A DNA stretch of 64,000 nucleotides from Nostoc sp. CENA543 (lineage in GTDB: Bacteria > Cyanobacteriota > Cyanobacteriia > Cyanobacteriales > Nostocaceae): assembly GCF_002896875.1 (NCBI RefSeq), contig NZ_CP023278.1:3954501-4018500 (forward strand). The letters are read 5' to 3'. Made by a program: the position numbers and the translations under genes. A model generated the notes under the pieces. It made no database searches, had not been told where the DNA came from, and worked only from the letters and a program-made list of their open reading frames with translations. This document shows, piece by piece, positions 1-7,038 of this stretch; within the stretch, counting starts at the first letter, position 1; every line of letters starts with the position of its first letter.

Positions 1-62
1 CCGCAGATAGGACAGGGTGCATTTTGTAGATTATGGTTGCTGGAATCTGGTTTTGTACTCAT
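1..62 (-). CDS. 5' end of an unidentified zinc-ribbon-like protein (cut by window edge)
   Basis: Reading the minus strand from an ATG at 60-62 gives an open frame of about 20 codons running off the window edge. It ends in a CPxCG motif (residues 17-21, APCPICG), the usual first half of a zinc ribbon or rubredoxin-like knuckle. It starts only 30 bases after the stop of the CHAT protein, in the same direction, so it is probably the fourth gene of that operon. The visible part is too short to name a family. Confidence 0.55.
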   Translation of the reverse strand, partial: MSTKPDSSNHNLQNAPCPIC

Positions 63-92
63 GAGGCTGTTTTACCTATTTTAAGGGCAAAA

Positions 93-2840
93 TTACTTGG
101 GAGGACAAGAAGGATCTTTCACAAGTTCAAATGATAACCGGCCTTTTACCCGCTTGACAGTGACAATTACGCGTGTGGTAAATTCTATGCGATCGCCCCT
201 GGGATCGAATCTGATTTTTGAGCCTGCAAGCACATCACTAGATGCGGCTGTTTCAGAGCGAATACCTGTTTCCGATAGTTTTTGTCGAATTTCTTTGCGA
301 GTGACATTTGGCTTTGATAGTTGTATTGCTTGCACTACTGCTTGCACCGCTTCATGTGCTAAGGCGGTTCTGCGATTTAAATCCCCACCCCAGTATTCAT
401 TATTCTCTTTTCTATACTGTTCCGCTCCACATTGTTGAGGATGCCAATCTACTGCTAAGAATAAACTATTGATAGTGTCATCTTGAGCTTTATTAATAAC
501 TTCCTGGAGATACATAGGGTTTGCCGCTAATATCGGCTTCCTCCCCTTATTAAGTTTAACAATCTCAATGGCTTTTTGCAGTGCCATACTATTGTTAGTA
601 CCACCATCAGGCAATAGTACCAAAGCATCAGCATTAGTCACTTCTGGCGGTAATTTACTAGTATCAAATGCAGGGTCAGACAAATCAAATTTATTAATGA
701 TACGTCCATTCAAGGCTCTAATCACCTGCTCAAATTGGTCAAACAAATCTTTACTAAATCCCTCTTGTGAGTTGTAGAAAACAACTACTTTGGGTGCGGT
801 TTTTTTGAGTTCCTCAATGAGATAGCGCACTAAACTATCAGCTTCTACTCTGCTAGAAGAAACGGTGCGATAAAAGACCTTATTGGGGTCATTACAATTG
901 GGAATGGATTGGAAATTTACTACTGTGCTGGTGGGAGAAATAACTACTAAATTTTCTGGAGAATAAATGTTTAAGGCTGCACAGGTGTTAGGAGAGGTGT
1001 AGTGTCCCACCACAGCTAAAATATTTTTGTCATTGGCTAAAACTTTAGCAACTTCTTGTGCTTGACTGAGATTATTATTATCGTTAGCAATCACAACTTG
1101 TAAGTTGAAATCCTTGCGATTTACAGCTACATCTTGAGCTTGAGCCACACCGAAAAGGATATCCATACCGAAGTTAACATTTAAGGGTGCAGCAACCGCA
1201 ATGGTGTAAATTGGCAGACTAGGGTTTTGATTATGCCGCAGATTCACCATCGCATTGTTACGATAAATGAGAATCTCTGGATCTTGAAGTGCAGCTAAAG
1301 CAGCTTTACTAAAACCTGGGGCAGATTTATTGAGTTTTGCTTGATTTCGTAGGTTATCAAAAATAGTAATTGCTACGTCATATTTACCTTGAGCAAATGC
1401 GGCAATGCCTTGCTTTTTTAATGACAAATAAGGTTCACTCAGTTGGACTCTACTATCAGCAATTGCCTTTTGACCATAGCTAATATATTTGTCTACATGA
1501 GCAGCAGTCAGGGTAATATCATCAGGTTGAGTACAAAGTGAGGGAAAAATCTGACATTGGTTGGTTTTCCATAAAGCAGTCGCGCCAAAAATTCCCACTG
1601 CGGCAATTAAACCCAGCATAATTTGAAGCTGCAAAGACAGGGAACGCCAGCGTACAAATAATGATACACCGTTTTTTGGAGGAATATCTGCGGCGATTGG
1701 GGCTGGTGGTGGTTCTTGTTGAATACTCGGCCAGACAAATTCTGATTGATTGGGATTTAAGCAGACTGTGGGTAGCCAGGATGCAGCCGGAAAATTTCCC
1801 TGTAAAGTTTCCAGGCGATCGCGCGCTTTCCTCACGGCTAAACATAGGGGTGTACCTTGAGAAAATTCCCGCAAAAAGTAGAGTAAGAATTTATAAGCAA
1901 TCCTGTCTGGGACTGGTTCTCGCATCACAATGACGGCTGGTACATTCAACTCGCCTAAAAAATCTGCAATTCCCAAGCCATCACAGGAATTAAAAATGGC
2001 CAATTTCAAACCATTTTCCACTGCACTGGTTAACCTTTGTTTTAAGGCCTTTAAGGGTAAGTTTATCCCTTCGCTAATTTGAATTTGTCCCCCGCTTCCC
2101 TCACTGGATGAGTGACCGGCAAAAAATAAAATTTGCCATTCTTGATCAAACAGTAAATGAGAAAGTGTCTCTTCATCTGGCTCAGATACGCTCTCAATTT
2201 GCGCCCCACGCTGTTCGAGCAGTTGTAAGGCGGCGGCATCTTCTTCTAGTTGTAAACCACCTTGAGAACTGCCAAAAATCGCTAAAACTCTCACTGGTGC
2301 TGTGAGCGTGGGGACTGGCCGATGAAATTTGGTGAATAAAGCGAACTCAGCATTGGGAAGTTTAGTAAATAAGTCCCATGTATGCCAAGGAATTCTGCGA
2401 AGGACTTCGTCTTGTTGTTCATTGTCTGCCTTACATTTGATGATAACGGGAACAGATTGATCATGGCTAACTCTAGTATTGGCACGAATGCGATCGCGCA
2501 AACTATTAAAAGCTTGATTCCGAAACCACCTGCGACATAAGTTTTCTAGTTCTTCGGCTCTAGTTCTCCAATTTTCTAATGTCGCCACGTTGGTGACTTG
2601 TGCTGGGACTGCTTGTAGTCTCCGACTGTTGTCTAGGGAAATAGCTTTCCAGTCTTCATATAACTGTGGGATTTCTGGTGCAGCTGGAATATCTGGTAAA
2701 TCATCATCATCTTGAATAGTCCGACCATCTTCTAGAATTTTGAGCCTCACGGAAAAACCGTCAACAAAACTACCGTCACTAATCTCAACTACGACAGTTA
2801 CATTTTCGGGATGTTGTGGTCTAGAGGATGATGACAGCAT
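93..2840 (-). CDS. CHAT (caspase-like) domain fused through one TM helix to a periplasmic amino-acid-binding-protein domain
   Basis: A protein of about 915 residues starting at ATG 2838-2840; an upstream TTG in frame is less likely. Residues about 180-370 form a CHAT domain with both expected catalytic residues: His near 243 in FFAGHSSS and Cys near 286 in LAIFNSCDG. One hydrophobic helix follows (about 403-425, LQLQIMLGLIAAVGIFG), then a Cys pair that could form a disulfide outside. Residues about 530-900 resemble the class I periplasmic binding fold of the Leu/Ile/Val receptor family (IYTIAVAAPLN, then LAVVGHYTSPNTCAAL). Inferred topology: protease-like domain in the cytoplasm, ligand-binding domain in the periplasm. 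It is the third gene of an operon after a sigma-like factor and a DUF1822 protein. The N-terminal 170 residues are unassigned. Substrate and ligand are unknown; I infer a sensor-effector. Confidence 0.85.
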   Translation of the reverse strand: MLSSSSRPQHPENVTVVVEISDGSFVDGFSVRLKILEDGRTIQDDDDLPDIPAAPEIPQLYEDWKAISLDNSRRLQAVPAQVTNVATLENWRTRAEELENLCRRWFRNQAFNSLRDRIRANTRVSHDQSVPVIIKCKADNEQQDEVLRRIPWHTWDLFTKLPNAEFALFTKFHRPVPTLTAPVRVLAIFGSSQGGLQLEEDAAALQLLEQRGAQIESVSEPDEETLSHLLFDQEWQILFFAGHSSSEGSGGQIQISEGINLPLKALKQRLTSAVENGLKLAIFNSCDGLGIADFLGELNVPAVIVMREPVPDRIAYKFLLYFLREFSQGTPLCLAVRKARDRLETLQGNFPAASWLPTVCLNPNQSEFVWPSIQQEPPPAPIAADIPPKNGVSLFVRWRSLSLQLQIMLGLIAAVGIFGATALWKTNQCQIFPSLCTQPDDITLTAAHVDKYISYGQKAIADSRVQLSEPYLSLKKQGIAAFAQGKYDVAITIFDNLRNQAKLNKSAPGFSKAALAALQDPEILIYRNNAMVNLRHNQNPSLPIYTIAVAAPLNVNFGMDILFGVAQAQDVAVNRKDFNLQVVIANDNNNLSQAQEVAKVLANDKNILAVVGHYTSPNTCAALNIYSPENLVVISPTSTVVNFQSIPNCNDPNKVFYRTVSSSRVEADSLVRYLIEELKKTAPKVVVFYNSQEGFSKDLFDQFEQVIRALNGRIINKFDLSDPAFDTSKLPPEVTNADALVLLPDGGTNNSMALQKAIEIVKLNKGRKPILAANPMYLQEVINKAQDDTINSLFLAVDWHPQQCGAEQYRKENNEYWGGDLNRRTALAHEAVQAVVQAIQLSKPNVTRKEIRQKLSETGIRSETAASSDVLAGSKIRFDPRGDRIEFTTRVIVTVKRVKGRLSFELVKDPSCPPK

Positions 2841-2928
2841 AACCAAGAGATAGCGGCTGGAGGGAAGGAATTTATTTATTAGATAAGCATGATTGTGCAG
2901 AATTCCGCAATGATCAGTTAATGATCAG

Positions 2929-4023
2929 TTAAAGCAAAAAATCTTCAGTAAAACTGACATCATTGAAAATTACCTGCACACTAAAGCGATCGCCTCTGTC
3001 CCCTGTAAACTTAAACTGAATATAATTGTCTTGTGGGCGTGATTCTACTTCAAAAAATAGATCACCAGCATCATCCAATCCGATTAACTTCAAGCCTGTC
3101 GGCATTTGGGGTTGTTGTTCTGGGGGATACACACGTAGCAAAACTAACATCCTGCCATCTGGCTTAGGTAAAATCCCCACGATGAGAACCATCGCATAAC
3201 CTAACAGGTAAATTCCTAAGTCCTTGGCACTGATGACGGGACAAGCAGGATGTTTAGGATCTAATTCCCACAGTAATTCCGCAGATTTCCAACGTATTTC
3301 GTCATCATGAGTGGTTTGGATGAGATTTACTAAGGCTTGCTGGGGATCGAGATGACTAGGGATAGTTTTTCCCCGATGACTGGACTGGTGGCGATAGAGT
3401 TTTTCCACCTGTTGGCGTAGGGGAATATCACCACGCTGTGGGTCAAGTTCAGCACGCCTAGTCACCGAAGCTTTCATGATTTGCAGTAAGTTTTTAGAGG
3501 GTTGCCAATCATATTCAAATACGTTTTTGAGCCAGTGACTCAATTTGACAACTGGGTCTTGAGGTTCGGAAGTTAAACAATCTAATAAACTATCAAGGGG
3601 TTTTAAGTAACTCAGTGGTAATTCCAAGACAGAAACAGATTCCACAAACCCTAAAATCTTTGCCTCCTGGTAAGGCTCATCGAGTTGAATGATGACATAG
3701 CCAAGTCGGTCTGACCAAACTTCTGGGGGGATGTGACATTTGCGATCGCTTTTCTGGAGGGAACGACATTCTAAAAATCCGTTTAAACTGGGAATATACA
3801 AATCAGCAATGTTTTCTAACTGCTGTTCTAAGGGATTCCAACAGTGGCTAGCTGCTAAGTCCGTCTCTATACCCAACCTTTCTAAAAAACGCTGAGTGAC
3901 TAAGACAGCTAAAGTATTACGATAAACTTGTTGCGATCGCTCCTTGGTTGGTTGTTGTTTAGCAAACTGATAAGCTTGTTGACAATCAGTAAGGGCGATC
4001 GTAATTGTGATTGGTTCAGTCAT
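2929..4023 (-). CDS. DUF1822 family protein
   Basis: A 364-residue protein without signal peptide or membrane segment. The N-terminus (MTEPITITIALTDCQQAYQF), the alternating hydrophobic C-terminal strands and the FxxFTGDRGDRFSVQV end resemble the cyanobacterial DUF1822 family, whose function is unknown. It lies 73 bases after the sigma-like gene and 88 bases before the CHAT gene on the same strand, so the three are probably co-transcribed. From memory, DUF1822 genes often sit between a sigma-like gene and a CHAT gene in filamentous cyanobacteria, which suggests a role linking the two. No catalytic motif is visible. Confidence 0.8.
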   Translation of the reverse strand: MTEPITITIALTDCQQAYQFAKQQPTKERSQQVYRNTLAVLVTQRFLERLGIETDLAASHCWNPLEQQLENIADLYIPSLNGFLECRSLQKSDRKCHIPPEVWSDRLGYVIIQLDEPYQEAKILGFVESVSVLELPLSYLKPLDSLLDCLTSEPQDPVVKLSHWLKNVFEYDWQPSKNLLQIMKASVTRRAELDPQRGDIPLRQQVEKLYRHQSSHRGKTIPSHLDPQQALVNLIQTTHDDEIRWKSAELLWELDPKHPACPVISAKDLGIYLLGYAMVLIVGILPKPDGRMLVLLRVYPPEQQPQMPTGLKLIGLDDAGDLFFEVESRPQDNYIQFKFTGDRGDRFSVQVIFNDVSFTEDFLL

Positions 4024-4096
4024 GATATATAAGAAAAAACATTTAATTAGGGGGTGTAGGGATCTTCAACCGTTACACCCGCAAACTCCCCGATCC

Positions 4097-4828
4097 TCAA
4101 TTAGATAACAACTGTTTGAAGATAGGGAAACAGCGAGTTTTGCAAAATCGTTTCAGTGCAGAAGATTCAACTTGATATTTTTGCGCCAAAGCATCCCAAG
4201 AAAAATCTCCTGAGTCGCGCAACATCTGCAAAATGTGCATCAACAAAAACTGACAATTCACATCAGGATGATTCTGCATTCGGCAATTTCTCAGGGAATG
4301 TGGATGATTTTGGATTAACTCCAGCCATTCTTGAATAGTTTCATGCCAACGCTCCGGCTCAGGCGCAGGAGGATACATCCATTCATGATTTTCTTCATCA
4401 ATAGGAAGATGATATTTTCTTTTGTCTTCCTTTTCCTTTTCACGAATGACATCTAAAATTCTAAATTTCAACTTTTGGTTAAACCAAGTGACAAAGCTAG
4501 CTCTTTCTGGGTTATATGCTAAAGACATCTCTTTGCTAAACCATTCCCAAGTGCGTGATAAGGCTTCCTCATAAATATCTGGCGATATCTTTCCACCTCC
4601 ACACCAAATTAATCGGGAAGACTTCATCATGATGATAATGAAATCCTTTGCTTGACTGGCCAAAGTTAAGTCATGACTTTGACAGGCTTGCTCCCACAAC
4701 CATTGACGCGCCGGAACATCATTCATGATTTCCTGAAGCTTTTTAGGTTGCTGTAATAACCTGCTCTTTTCAATGGGATTACTAAAAGCCGCTTCTAACC
4801 AACCAATTTTCATATATTGATTACCCAT
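4097..4828 (-). CDS. Sigma-70 family (ECF-like) RNA polymerase sigma factor
   Basis: A 243-residue protein. Residues about 75-135 read as sigma region 2: EEALSRTWEWFSKEM, then YNPERASFVTWFNQKLKFRI and LDVIREKE, the pattern of the core-binding and -10-recognition helices in ECF-type factors. The last 50 residues (FSWDALAQKYQVESSALKRF) can fold as a region 4 helix-turn-helix, though it is more divergent than usual. A loop rich in Pro and charged residues links them. It is the first gene of the operon with DUF1822 and the CHAT fusion, so it may control that operon or a regulon answering the CHAT sensor. No anti-sigma gene is seen in the window. The start ATG at 4826-4828 could be replaced by a second Met five codons later. 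Confidence 0.75.
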   Translation of the reverse strand: MGNQYMKIGWLEAAFSNPIEKSRLLQQPKKLQEIMNDVPARQWLWEQACQSHDLTLASQAKDFIIIMMKSSRLIWCGGGKISPDIYEEALSRTWEWFSKEMSLAYNPERASFVTWFNQKLKFRILDVIREKEKEDKRKYHLPIDEENHEWMYPPAPEPERWHETIQEWLELIQNHPHSLRNCRMQNHPDVNCQFLLMHILQMLRDSGDFSWDALAQKYQVESSALKRFCKTRCFPIFKQLLSN

Positions 4829-5106
4829 AAAGATTATCCAGACCCAATTAGTTTAGGTTTGAATATCATCACAGCACCTATCCTCCCCGCAATTCTCTAG
4901 GGGGATATCGAGATCAGAGAATATAGAATTGGCAATTGTTTACAAAACTTCATGCCTGTTAGTCAATAGCTCCCCGACTGTTTGAAAGCCGGGGAGCTAT
5001 GACCTGTCATAATTTTTATGGCGGACTAATAGTGTATTAAATGTAGGATATCGGCGTTGGGTTTCCTTGCGTCAAACCAACCTACTGGCCGGTGTGAATG
5101 TTTTGA
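4829..5106. other. Intergenic region upstream of the sigma operon
   Basis: No gene. It holds the presumed promoter of the sigma / DUF1822 / CHAT operon and one strong hairpin (4966-5000). A short palindromic patch, ATTGGCAATTG, lies near 4927-4938. Confidence 0.5.
4966..5000. terminator. 11-bp GC-rich hairpin, probable terminator
   Basis: ATAGCTCCCCG (4966-4976) pairs exactly with CGGGGAGCTAT (4990-5000) around a 13-base loop. It lies about 105 bases beyond the stop of the minus-strand gene 5107-5748. The T-rich side (AATTTTT) is on the plus strand, so as a minus-strand terminator it lacks a clean T run. It is related in sequence to the hairpin at 5990-6024. Confidence 0.6.
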
Positions 5107-6219: not shown

Positions 6220-7038
6220 TTAATGTCTGCATTTCGCGCCTTGGGGAGTAGCATCAGGGTAGAAAGTAATAATTGCCTGATCCTTTCTTACAAAAACGTT
6301 AGGAAAAGTTTTGCCTGTTTCTTGATCACGCACATTGTAAATGCAAGCTCCTTCTTTATTCTTTTGCTTTTTAAATGCGAGTGTAGTATCTATTAACATT
6401 TCTTCGGCATTGCTGATATAGCTATAACCTTTGATGACATCTCTGATAATTCTATTGCCTTGTTTGATTACTACACCCATCGTATAAATTACACCTGGGA
6501 CAACTTCTTCTCGTTGCTGATTATTTGGGAGTCTGCCAGCAATACCTTGATTTTGTAGTTGCAAATATCTGCCATAAAAATGTAACCCACCAATATCATT
6601 GGCGTTATATATTTCACCACAGAATATGTGTTCAAAACCACGTCGTTTAAACCAAATTTTAGTTAAGTCTTCAATAAATTGTGTCTTGGTTTTACGTCCT
6701 GGTAACAGTTCACCACCTGTCACTTTTTGTAGTTTTTGTAGTACCTCTGGATGCTGAGATAATAACTGTTTAAATTGATGGCGATTTACTTTTGTCCCAA
6801 CAGCACCACAGGTATTAAGTACAGCTTGGTCGAAAGCATTTAATTTTGGCGCAGGTGGTGTAATATCTACTCGTTGTCCTCTGGGAAAACCTACAGGAAC
6901 GGGATTATCTACATTATCGAAAAAAGGTAATAATGCCTGCTGTGATTGCGCCGTAACTTGATTTTGGATATATAGGGGACTACTCAGCAATAAGATAGTA
7001 AATATTCGCAAAGTTGTGGATAGTTTGGGGTTAAACAT
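6220..7038 (-). CDS. Secreted EndoU (XendoU-like) nuclease-domain protein
   Basis: A 272-residue protein with an N-terminal signal peptide (hydrophobic stretch IFTILLLSSPLYI, then a probable cut near TAQSQQ). The C-terminal half carries the EndoU signature GFEHIFCGE followed by GGLHFYGRYLQLQNQ; these supply two histidines, as in the catalytic pair of the eukaryotic XendoU family. A lysine in the last 50 residues (FVRKDQAIITFYP) could be the third catalytic residue. Known EndoU enzymes cut RNA at uridines to give 2',3'-cyclic phosphates; some bacterial members are secreted toxins. Here no immunity gene adjoins it and no toxin-delivery domain is seen, so a periplasmic or extracellular nuclease is the simplest reading. 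It lies after ilvC in the same direction but is separated by a strong terminator, so it is transcribed alone. Confidence 0.75.
   Translation of the reverse strand: MFNPKLSTTLRIFTILLLSSPLYIQNQVTAQSQQALLPFFDNVDNPVPVGFPRGQRVDITPPAPKLNAFDQAVLNTCGAVGTKVNRHQFKQLLSQHPEVLQKLQKVTGGELLPGRKTKTQFIEDLTKIWFKRRGFEHIFCGEIYNANDIGGLHFYGRYLQLQNQGIAGRLPNNQQREEVVPGVIYTMGVVIKQGNRIIRDVIKGYSYISNAEEMLIDTTLAFKKQKNKEGACIYNVRDQETGKTFPNVFVRKDQAIITFYPDATPQGAKCRH

Follow-up and report, generated by a model that had tools for sequence, protein, structure and literature searches.

A cyanobacterial operon of a sigma factor, a DUF1822 protein and a CHAT receptor-protease: a possible ligand-gated route to sigma-factor release

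Could a membrane protein that joins a caspase-like CHAT domain to a periplasmic binding domain control the sigma factor encoded at the head of its own operon? The question is raised by the first three genes of a 64,000-nucleotide stretch (hereafter the window) from the 7.2-Mb genome of the cyanobacterium Nostoc sp. CENA543 (NZ_CP023278.1, positions 3,954,501 to 4,018,500). On the minus strand, a sigma factor gene is followed by a DUF1822 gene and by the gene for a CHAT-transmembrane-periplasmic binding protein (CHAT-TM-PBP), with intergenic gaps of 73 and 82 nt. An initial sequence-only reading had placed these three open reading frames (ORFs), and all of them are present where it put them. 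Our answer is a tentative yes, with a chance somewhat short of even: the receptor-controlled CHAT protease would cut the DUF1822 protein and thereby free the sigma factor, making the operon a transmembrane signalling circuit in itself. Surveyed loci carry L numbers, the window's operon lying in L001.

Although the sequence-only reading knew of no characterised system with this layout, the gene set had already been described by Kaur et al. 2021 (PMC8195603). In that account, a constant EACC2-caspase module carries variable sensor C-termini and lies mostly beside an extracytoplasmic function (ECF) sigma factor and DUF1822 where a TRADD-N gene is absent; sensing, autopeptidase activation and sigma-driven transcription are proposed, and the accessible account of the EACC2-caspase module reports no experiment on that set. 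The window operon belongs to the same set, sharing its three kinds of gene, its N-terminal module joined to a caspase-like domain and its variable sensors (PMC8195603): a CHAT domain follows the constant module, DUF1822 and sigma genes are neighbours (the sigma gene recognised at family level), and the C-termini of relatives vary. The variants listed by Kaur et al. are CHASE2, PDZ, kinase, STAND, macro, trypsin, multi-TM and "several small-molecule-binding domains", whereas the sensor here is a PBP; likewise, they propose autopeptidase activation and call DUF1822 a tetratricopeptide repeat (TPR) protein, whereas we propose an anti-sigma role for it. The terms peripla, PBP, ligand-binding and solute-binding are absent from the main text of PMC8195603, figures being outside this search. 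In the accessible open literature on EACC2, on CHAT with sigma factors and cyanobacteria, and on CHAT proteases with anti-sigma factors, the set is described, among the papers listed, only by Kaur et al. (for the last topic as judged from titles and the openings of abstracts); a cyanobacterial paper on diel expression does not bear on it, and DUF1822 appears elsewhere in a genome comparison listing two DUF1822 genes with mutations. Since subscription papers, preprints, figures and supplements lay beyond the search, a published figure may already show the PBP variant. The general gene set is therefore already known; this analysis adds that its PBP-receptor version is widespread and that a promoter-like element and a leader peptide are conserved upstream, and the receptor form with its mechanism is a testable refinement.

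The receptor-protease comprises 917 aa when counted from a TTG codon, or 915 aa from an ATG two codons on. Its CHAT domain reaches 44.7 bits against Pfam PF12770 (E 1.5e-11; curated cut-off, 24). Residues ~17-375 align at ~34-45% identity with listed homologues whose C-termini differ, and the N-terminal region agrees with the published EACC2 in position and alpha+beta pattern in a concatenated AlphaFold model of the sigma, DUF1822 and CHAT proteins of the orthologous operon L040. The histidine and cysteine proposed earlier as a dyad (His 243 and Cys 286, which are His245 and Cys288 in the 917-aa numbering) are kept across an alignment of 127 rows, duplicates included, rather than lost in homologues: the histidine is present in 124/124 covering rows (three do not cover it) and the cysteine in 124/125 (two do not), the exception being an arginine in L025. 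On this conservation, the CHAT part looks catalytically active. A Foldseek search with the concatenated model returned the activated SAVED-CHAT filament 8tl0 as the best match (E 8.4e-9), the best separase having E 1.4e-6, and the first 16 rows, which are all those with E<=0.001, were SAVED-CHAT or separases. We infer that this match belongs to the EACC2-CHAT part, since the Foldseek output gives no aligned range.

Between the CHAT and binding domains, the single membrane helix claimed earlier corresponds to a single hydrophobic segment. Such a segment lies at this place in 42/48 CHAT-PBP proteins (deduplicated, PBP profile E<=1e-60), the other six having none above the hydrophobicity threshold, and in the 42 the 15 residues before it contain 2-7 lysines or arginines and 0-1 acidic residues. 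This charge pattern predicts a cytoplasmic CHAT and a binding domain outside, not both on one side of the membrane. Of these 42, the 19 that form the window's clade have a cysteine pair just past the segment. A TPR-like stretch between helix and PBP stays below the Pfam cut-off (E 0.29). The assignment of a class I binding-protein domain held up: besides the Peripla_BP_6 match (E 3e-19), the domain aligns with two proteins in the PDB, the leucine/isoleucine/valine-binding protein 1z15 (E 4.7e-4) and the receptor 4mlc (E 1.3e-7). The alignment, in the first lobe, takes in GH..S and SP.ST stretches, which we take to be the holders of the amino-acid carboxylate.

Both CHAT and Peripla_BP_6 were matched in all ten CHAT-PBP relatives scanned, and the module also carries other sensors in relatives, with CHASE2 (L003, L005) or nSTAND1-WD40 (L004) in the PBP's place and pentapeptide repeats placed N-terminally (L006, L007). 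Receptor proteases of 1238-1250 aa are encoded at L077, L080, L082-L086 and L097; the two of them scanned (L077, L097) have tandem PBPs. A 782-aa CHAT protein at L144 appears CHAT-CHASE2-like by eye and was not used. As for other membrane CHAT proteins, HetF of Anabaena is a putative protease whose function is lost when its active site is mutated; it has TPRs and roles in the divisome and in heterocysts (PMC8406250), whereas the window protein is a PBP-fused CHAT. Identity of the window protein with HetF was rejected, its score being 30 bits against a HetF model cut-off of 1200.

A survey of cyanobacterial genomes answered the possibility that the three genes fail to co-occur: they are strongly linked. 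Across seven genomes, a CHAT gene of any type lay within 6 kb of 15/22 DUF1822 matches, against ~1.2 expected at random (chance probability ~2e-15, clustering of CHAT genes ignored; counted by hand from listed coordinates). The CENA543 genome itself holds 8 DUF1822 and 27 CHAT matches, and seven of its eight DUF1822 genes have a CHAT gene within 6 kb, although the one in L002 is a different type, a TPR-CHAT; in the six further genomes, with 6 to 38 CHAT matches each, the figure is 8/14. A second scan, anchored on DUF1822 only, took the top 80 of 547 confirmed matches, each bearing a cyanobacterial name, and searched these loci with sigma, CHAT and PBP profiles built from the window's own family. 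A CHAT gene was found within 6 kb in 71/80; a same-strand sigma gene lay no more than 150 bp from DUF1822 in 54/80 (58/80 within 6 kb); CHAT was fused to a binding domain in 40/80, and the full order sigma, DUF1822, CHAT-PBP, adjacent and on one strand, occurred in 36/80. Because the 80 loci are the best matches to the window's subfamily, these counts overstate how typical the window layout is of DUF1822 at large. Of the nine loci without CHAT, four end at a contig edge, three (L087, L098, L100) have a kinase, STAND NTPase or GTPase gene beside DUF1822 and two (L110, L128) other genes. Across 54 deduplicated operons (out of 59), partial distance correlations were 0.73 for DUF1822-CHAT, 0.40 for sigma-DUF1822 and 0.20 for sigma-CHAT given DUF1822, values that are no more than suggestive of DUF1822 standing between the other two proteins.

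A structure model of the DUF1822 protein, built from 21 sequences, has a mean predicted local distance difference test (pLDDT) of 80.5 and a predicted template modelling score (pTM) of 0.47. It predicts, with good confidence, an alpha/beta domain in the N-terminal half and a beta domain in the C-terminal half with a hinge between them, where pLDDT falls below 50 at residues 155-179 and 185-198. Across 108 rows the hinge comprises the least conserved blocks, save for conserved tryptophans in a WLxxxFExxWQ-like stretch, and about half of the rows have a helical insert there. In the concatenated model the tryptophan stretch has a pLDDT of 67-82 (56 just after) versus ~40 in DUF1822 alone; this rise is at most a hint, given that the concatenated model has more rows, another orthologue and a pTM of 0.44. 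At E<=0.001, a single Foldseek row of 1300 remained for the DUF1822 model (3hib, a yeast Brr2 domain), and the best 50 of the 1300 contained many FN3/Ig-like beta-sandwiches and others apparently spurious. Among the matches listed, the closest named orthologue is that of Trichormus sp. M33_DOE_039 (L054), at 79% identity.

The first protein of the operon is likely, although not proven, to be an ECF-like sigma factor, given that the window protein is below cut-off, that the matches arise at family level and that profile comparison is weak. The sigma-70-like label of the sequence-only reading fits the family, in which TIGR02937 (sigma70-ECF) matches 22/42 members at E<=0.1 (best 1.6e-7), but is weak for the window protein itself, which stays below every cut-off: in Pfam it matched no sigma model, with sub-cut-off matches to unrelated families only, and its best NCBIfam model was NF041236 (type III-E sigma) at 18.4 bits against a cut-off of 100. 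Profile alignment with four clear sigma paralogues by hhalign was weak (E 0.009, probability 4.5). The sigma part of the concatenated model consists of helices, a disordered linker and a helical C-terminal part. Special kinship to the type III-E sigma factor was rejected: three ordinary ECF paralogues reach 18.8-21.9 bits on NF041236, and that model matches only 7/42 relatives at E<=0.1.

How might these parts work together? The periplasmic domain would bind a small molecule, with amino acids or similar compounds as plausible ligands, and the single helix would relay the change to the cytoplasmic EACC2-CHAT part, probably through dimerisation or rearrangement, turning on its Cys-His protease. 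The active protease would then cut the DUF1822 protein, most likely in the variable hinge between the alpha/beta domain and the beta-sandwich. Uncut DUF1822 would keep the ECF-like sigma factor inactive; once released, this factor would transcribe a regulon, probably with its own operon included. The ligand, the protease activity, the binding of DUF1822 to sigma, the cleavage and the autoregulation are thus all putative steps.

Besides the synteny, the kept dyad, the predicted topology, the exchange of sensors on a constant module and the CHAT-type fold matches, this proposal draws on the two nearest experimentally known circuits and on the central position of DUF1822 in the distance correlations. 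In type III-E systems, an ECF-like sigma factor is inhibited by Csx30, which the CHAT protein Csx29 cleaves (PMC10028731); the cleavage site lacks conservation (PMC11106740). CalpL, in turn, cleaves the anti-sigma factor CalpT, which holds CalpS (PMC11417357). By analogy with both, the best reading of DUF1822 is that of an anti-sigma factor cut by the receptor-controlled protease, and DUF1822 is a likelier substrate than the sigma factor. The window set shares with the type III-E Craspase (the TPR-CHAT protein Csx29, Csx30 and CASP-sigma; PMC10028731) a CHAT protein, a (here likely) ECF-like sigma factor and a third protein, encoded together, and with CalpL/CalpT/CalpS a tripartite plan of sensor-protease, anti-sigma factor (here proposed) and ECF sigma factor (here likely; PMC11417357). 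CalpL differs in being a Lon-type protease with a SAVED sensor of cyclic oligoadenylate in CRISPR signalling (PMC11417357), whereas the window protein combines CHAT and PBP. Craspase, for its part, is RNA-guided via Cas7-11, whereas the window protease is a predicted membrane receptor. SAVED-CHAT, which acts through a cleavage cascade, has a CHAT domain switched by a fused sensor, as proposed here, but is a type III CRISPR effector that senses a nucleotide. Within L001, no Cas7-11-sized ORF was found besides the receptor-protease. Homology of DUF1822 to Csx30 was dropped after sequence searches of the PDB and the best 50 of 1300 Foldseek rows showed no sign of it, and the comparison is kept as an analogy.

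Several observations weigh against DUF1822 cleavage as the operon's mechanism. The prediction of a sigma-DUF1822-CHAT complex, which the sequence-only reading had suggested, could be run as the concatenated model but yielded no confident complex (pTM 0.44). Csx29 is absent among the 50 Foldseek rows listed for that model and Csx30 among the best 50 of 1300 for DUF1822, which by sequence has no match in the PDB. In 22/80 DUF1822-anchored loci, none of the genes within 6 kb was recognised as a sigma gene. In L002, the TPR-CHAT beside DUF1822, a non-EACC2 type, has an N-terminal hydrophobic segment (residues 11-29) that may be a signal peptide, and this protein may therefore not meet a cytoplasmic DUF1822. 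The correlations, too, may come down to shared ancestry, which DUF1822 may simply record with the least noise. Furthermore, the place of CHAT beside the sigma-DUF1822 pair is taken by a kinase in L087, a STAND NTPase in L098 and a GTPase in L100, and L008 of the CENA543 genome has a sigma-DUF1822 pair with no CHAT within 6 kb; cutting by CHAT is therefore not the sole way to act on the pair. The L100 GTPase carries DUF697, and the L087 sigma gene is truncated by the contig edge. At L003:811-10435 (-), a paralogous locus encodes a sigma factor, DUF1822, CHAT-CHASE2 and DUF928 proteins, a TPR-CHAT that has a hydrophobic segment at its N-terminus and, as a gene of its own, a periplasmic binding protein.

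These exchanged and missing CHAT genes would be expected if DUF1822 were an adaptor or scaffold between the sigma factor and any sensor encoded next door, so that sensor binding would alter sigma activity without proteolysis and CHAT would be one interchangeable effector. We consider this explanation unlikely: the Cys-His dyad is almost wholly retained, so that catalysis is arguably needed wherever CHAT occurs, and L087, L098 and L100 are single loci whose adjacency may be due to chance. Similarly unlikely, in our judgement, is that CHAT cleaves itself on ligand binding, freeing a cytoplasmic part whose targets would be DUF1822 or others; the sigma factor would then be a downstream or parallel output. 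Autopeptidase activation is what PMC8195603 proposes for this family, and the occurrence of other sensors on the same module fits it, but it leaves unexplained the constant neighbourhood of DUF1822 and its closest correlation being with CHAT. A counter-invader system, for defence or cell suicide, with cell damage rather than a metabolic response as its output, is improbable even though Kaur et al. treat the family among conflict systems (PMC8195603) and a protease linked to type III CRISPR systems is the closest in fold to the CHAT part, because none of the three proteins matches PADLOC at E<=0.01, the 12 kb of L001 around the operon show no CRISPR-like repeat array and a periplasmic binding domain would be an odd sensor for invaders.

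Control of the operon itself left a trace upstream. A TAAAGTTTTGTAAANAAT-like block lies 5' of the sigma gene in the window and in 17 orthologous upstream regions, in some of them with one to few changes, heaviest in L067, L069 and L104; a GATA follows 41-42 nt from the AAAG start of the first block (17 measured). The two blocks together are missing from most other sigma genes surveyed, and the exact first block occurs once in the 7.2-Mb genome. This two-block element is likely a promoter or operator of the operon. A resemblance to the HLR1/RpaB box was dropped, since a single exact occurrence per genome is unlike a global regulator's box. In 13/18 upstream regions there is also a leader peptide of the type MIFKPKLIGSG (in the window VMIFKPKLIGSG, 12 codons), which ends 5 nt ahead of the assigned sigma start or overlaps it, that start being doubtful in L064 and L065; translational coupling to the sigma gene is possible. 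Element and leader together indicate dedicated control, and autoregulation by the operon's own sigma factor is our guess. A regulon scan allowing three mismatches found 10 sites, one of them that of the operon, whereas a control pattern gave 2; of three sites located, with one strand read, one overlaps a gene start and two are intragenic, and we claim no regulon.

CHAT proteins abound in these cyanobacteria and, to our knowledge, are mostly without known substrates. The receptor-CHAT-DUF1822-sigma circuit would offer CHAT a concrete candidate substrate and output and give DUF1822 a role. If true, an extracellular substance may switch genes on through the cutting of an inhibitor in filamentous cyanobacteria, and the protease-anti-sigma-sigma logic of type III CRISPR systems would also serve ordinary environmental signalling; swappable sensors on one protease core would be useful for ligand-controlled expression switches. 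It is a doubtful, though conceivable, further step that a CRISPR-independent, ligand-gated transmembrane caspase pathway destroying an anti-sigma DUF1822 forms a new one-component class of sigma release, from whose kind of module type III-E and related CRISPR protease circuits were possibly recruited.

Table 1 Features of the operon and its upstream region, in window coordinates.
Feature	Position	Strand	Basis
Divergent, likely ECF-like sigma factor, 243 aa	4097..4828	-	ORF and family-level TIGR02937 matches
DUF1822 protein, 364 aa; putative substrate of CHAT and putative anti-sigma factor or adaptor	2929..4023	-	PF08852, E 4.7e-73
DUF1822 residues 151-228, hinge, candidate cleavage region	3340..3573	-	Low pLDDT and low conservation
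EACC2-like, CHAT, TM and PBP receptor-protease	93..2846	-	ORF, Pfam, hydrophobicity
CHAT domain, residues 202-347	1806..2243	-	Pfam, dyad alignment
Codons of His245 and Cys288	2112-2114; 1983-1985	-	Dyad alignment
Predicted transmembrane segment, residues 407-425, then Cys pair (431, 438)	1572..1628	-	Hydrophobicity
Peripla_BP_6 domain, residues 581-863, related to leucine/isoleucine/valine-binding proteins	258..1106	-	Pfam, alignment
Putative two-block element 5' of the sigma gene (AAGTTTTGTAAACAAT, then CGATA)	4906..4950	-	18 upstream regions aligned
Leader mini-ORF GTG ATG ATA TTC AAA CCT AAA CTA ATT GGG TCT GGA TAA	4834..4872	-	Upstream alignment

Downstream of the three genes, the CPxCG protein of the sequence-only reading is a real ORF of 72 aa, with its start at window position 62 and its end beyond the window's edge (L001:5844-6062). 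It lies apparently outside the conserved unit, given that relatives among loci L001-L133, many with short flanks, were confined to L010, L039 and L054, copies of one site. Also 3' of the operon, L001:1420-4620 (-) holds a weak response-regulator match (Response_reg at cut-off, GerE below it) and a gene with VWA and SBP_bac_11, and genes of similar length and start adjoin the orthologous operons L039, L040 and L044. Elsewhere in the window, positions 6220-7038 (-) encode an EndoU-type nuclease (PF14436, E 4e-34) with an N-terminus that by eye resembles a signal peptide.

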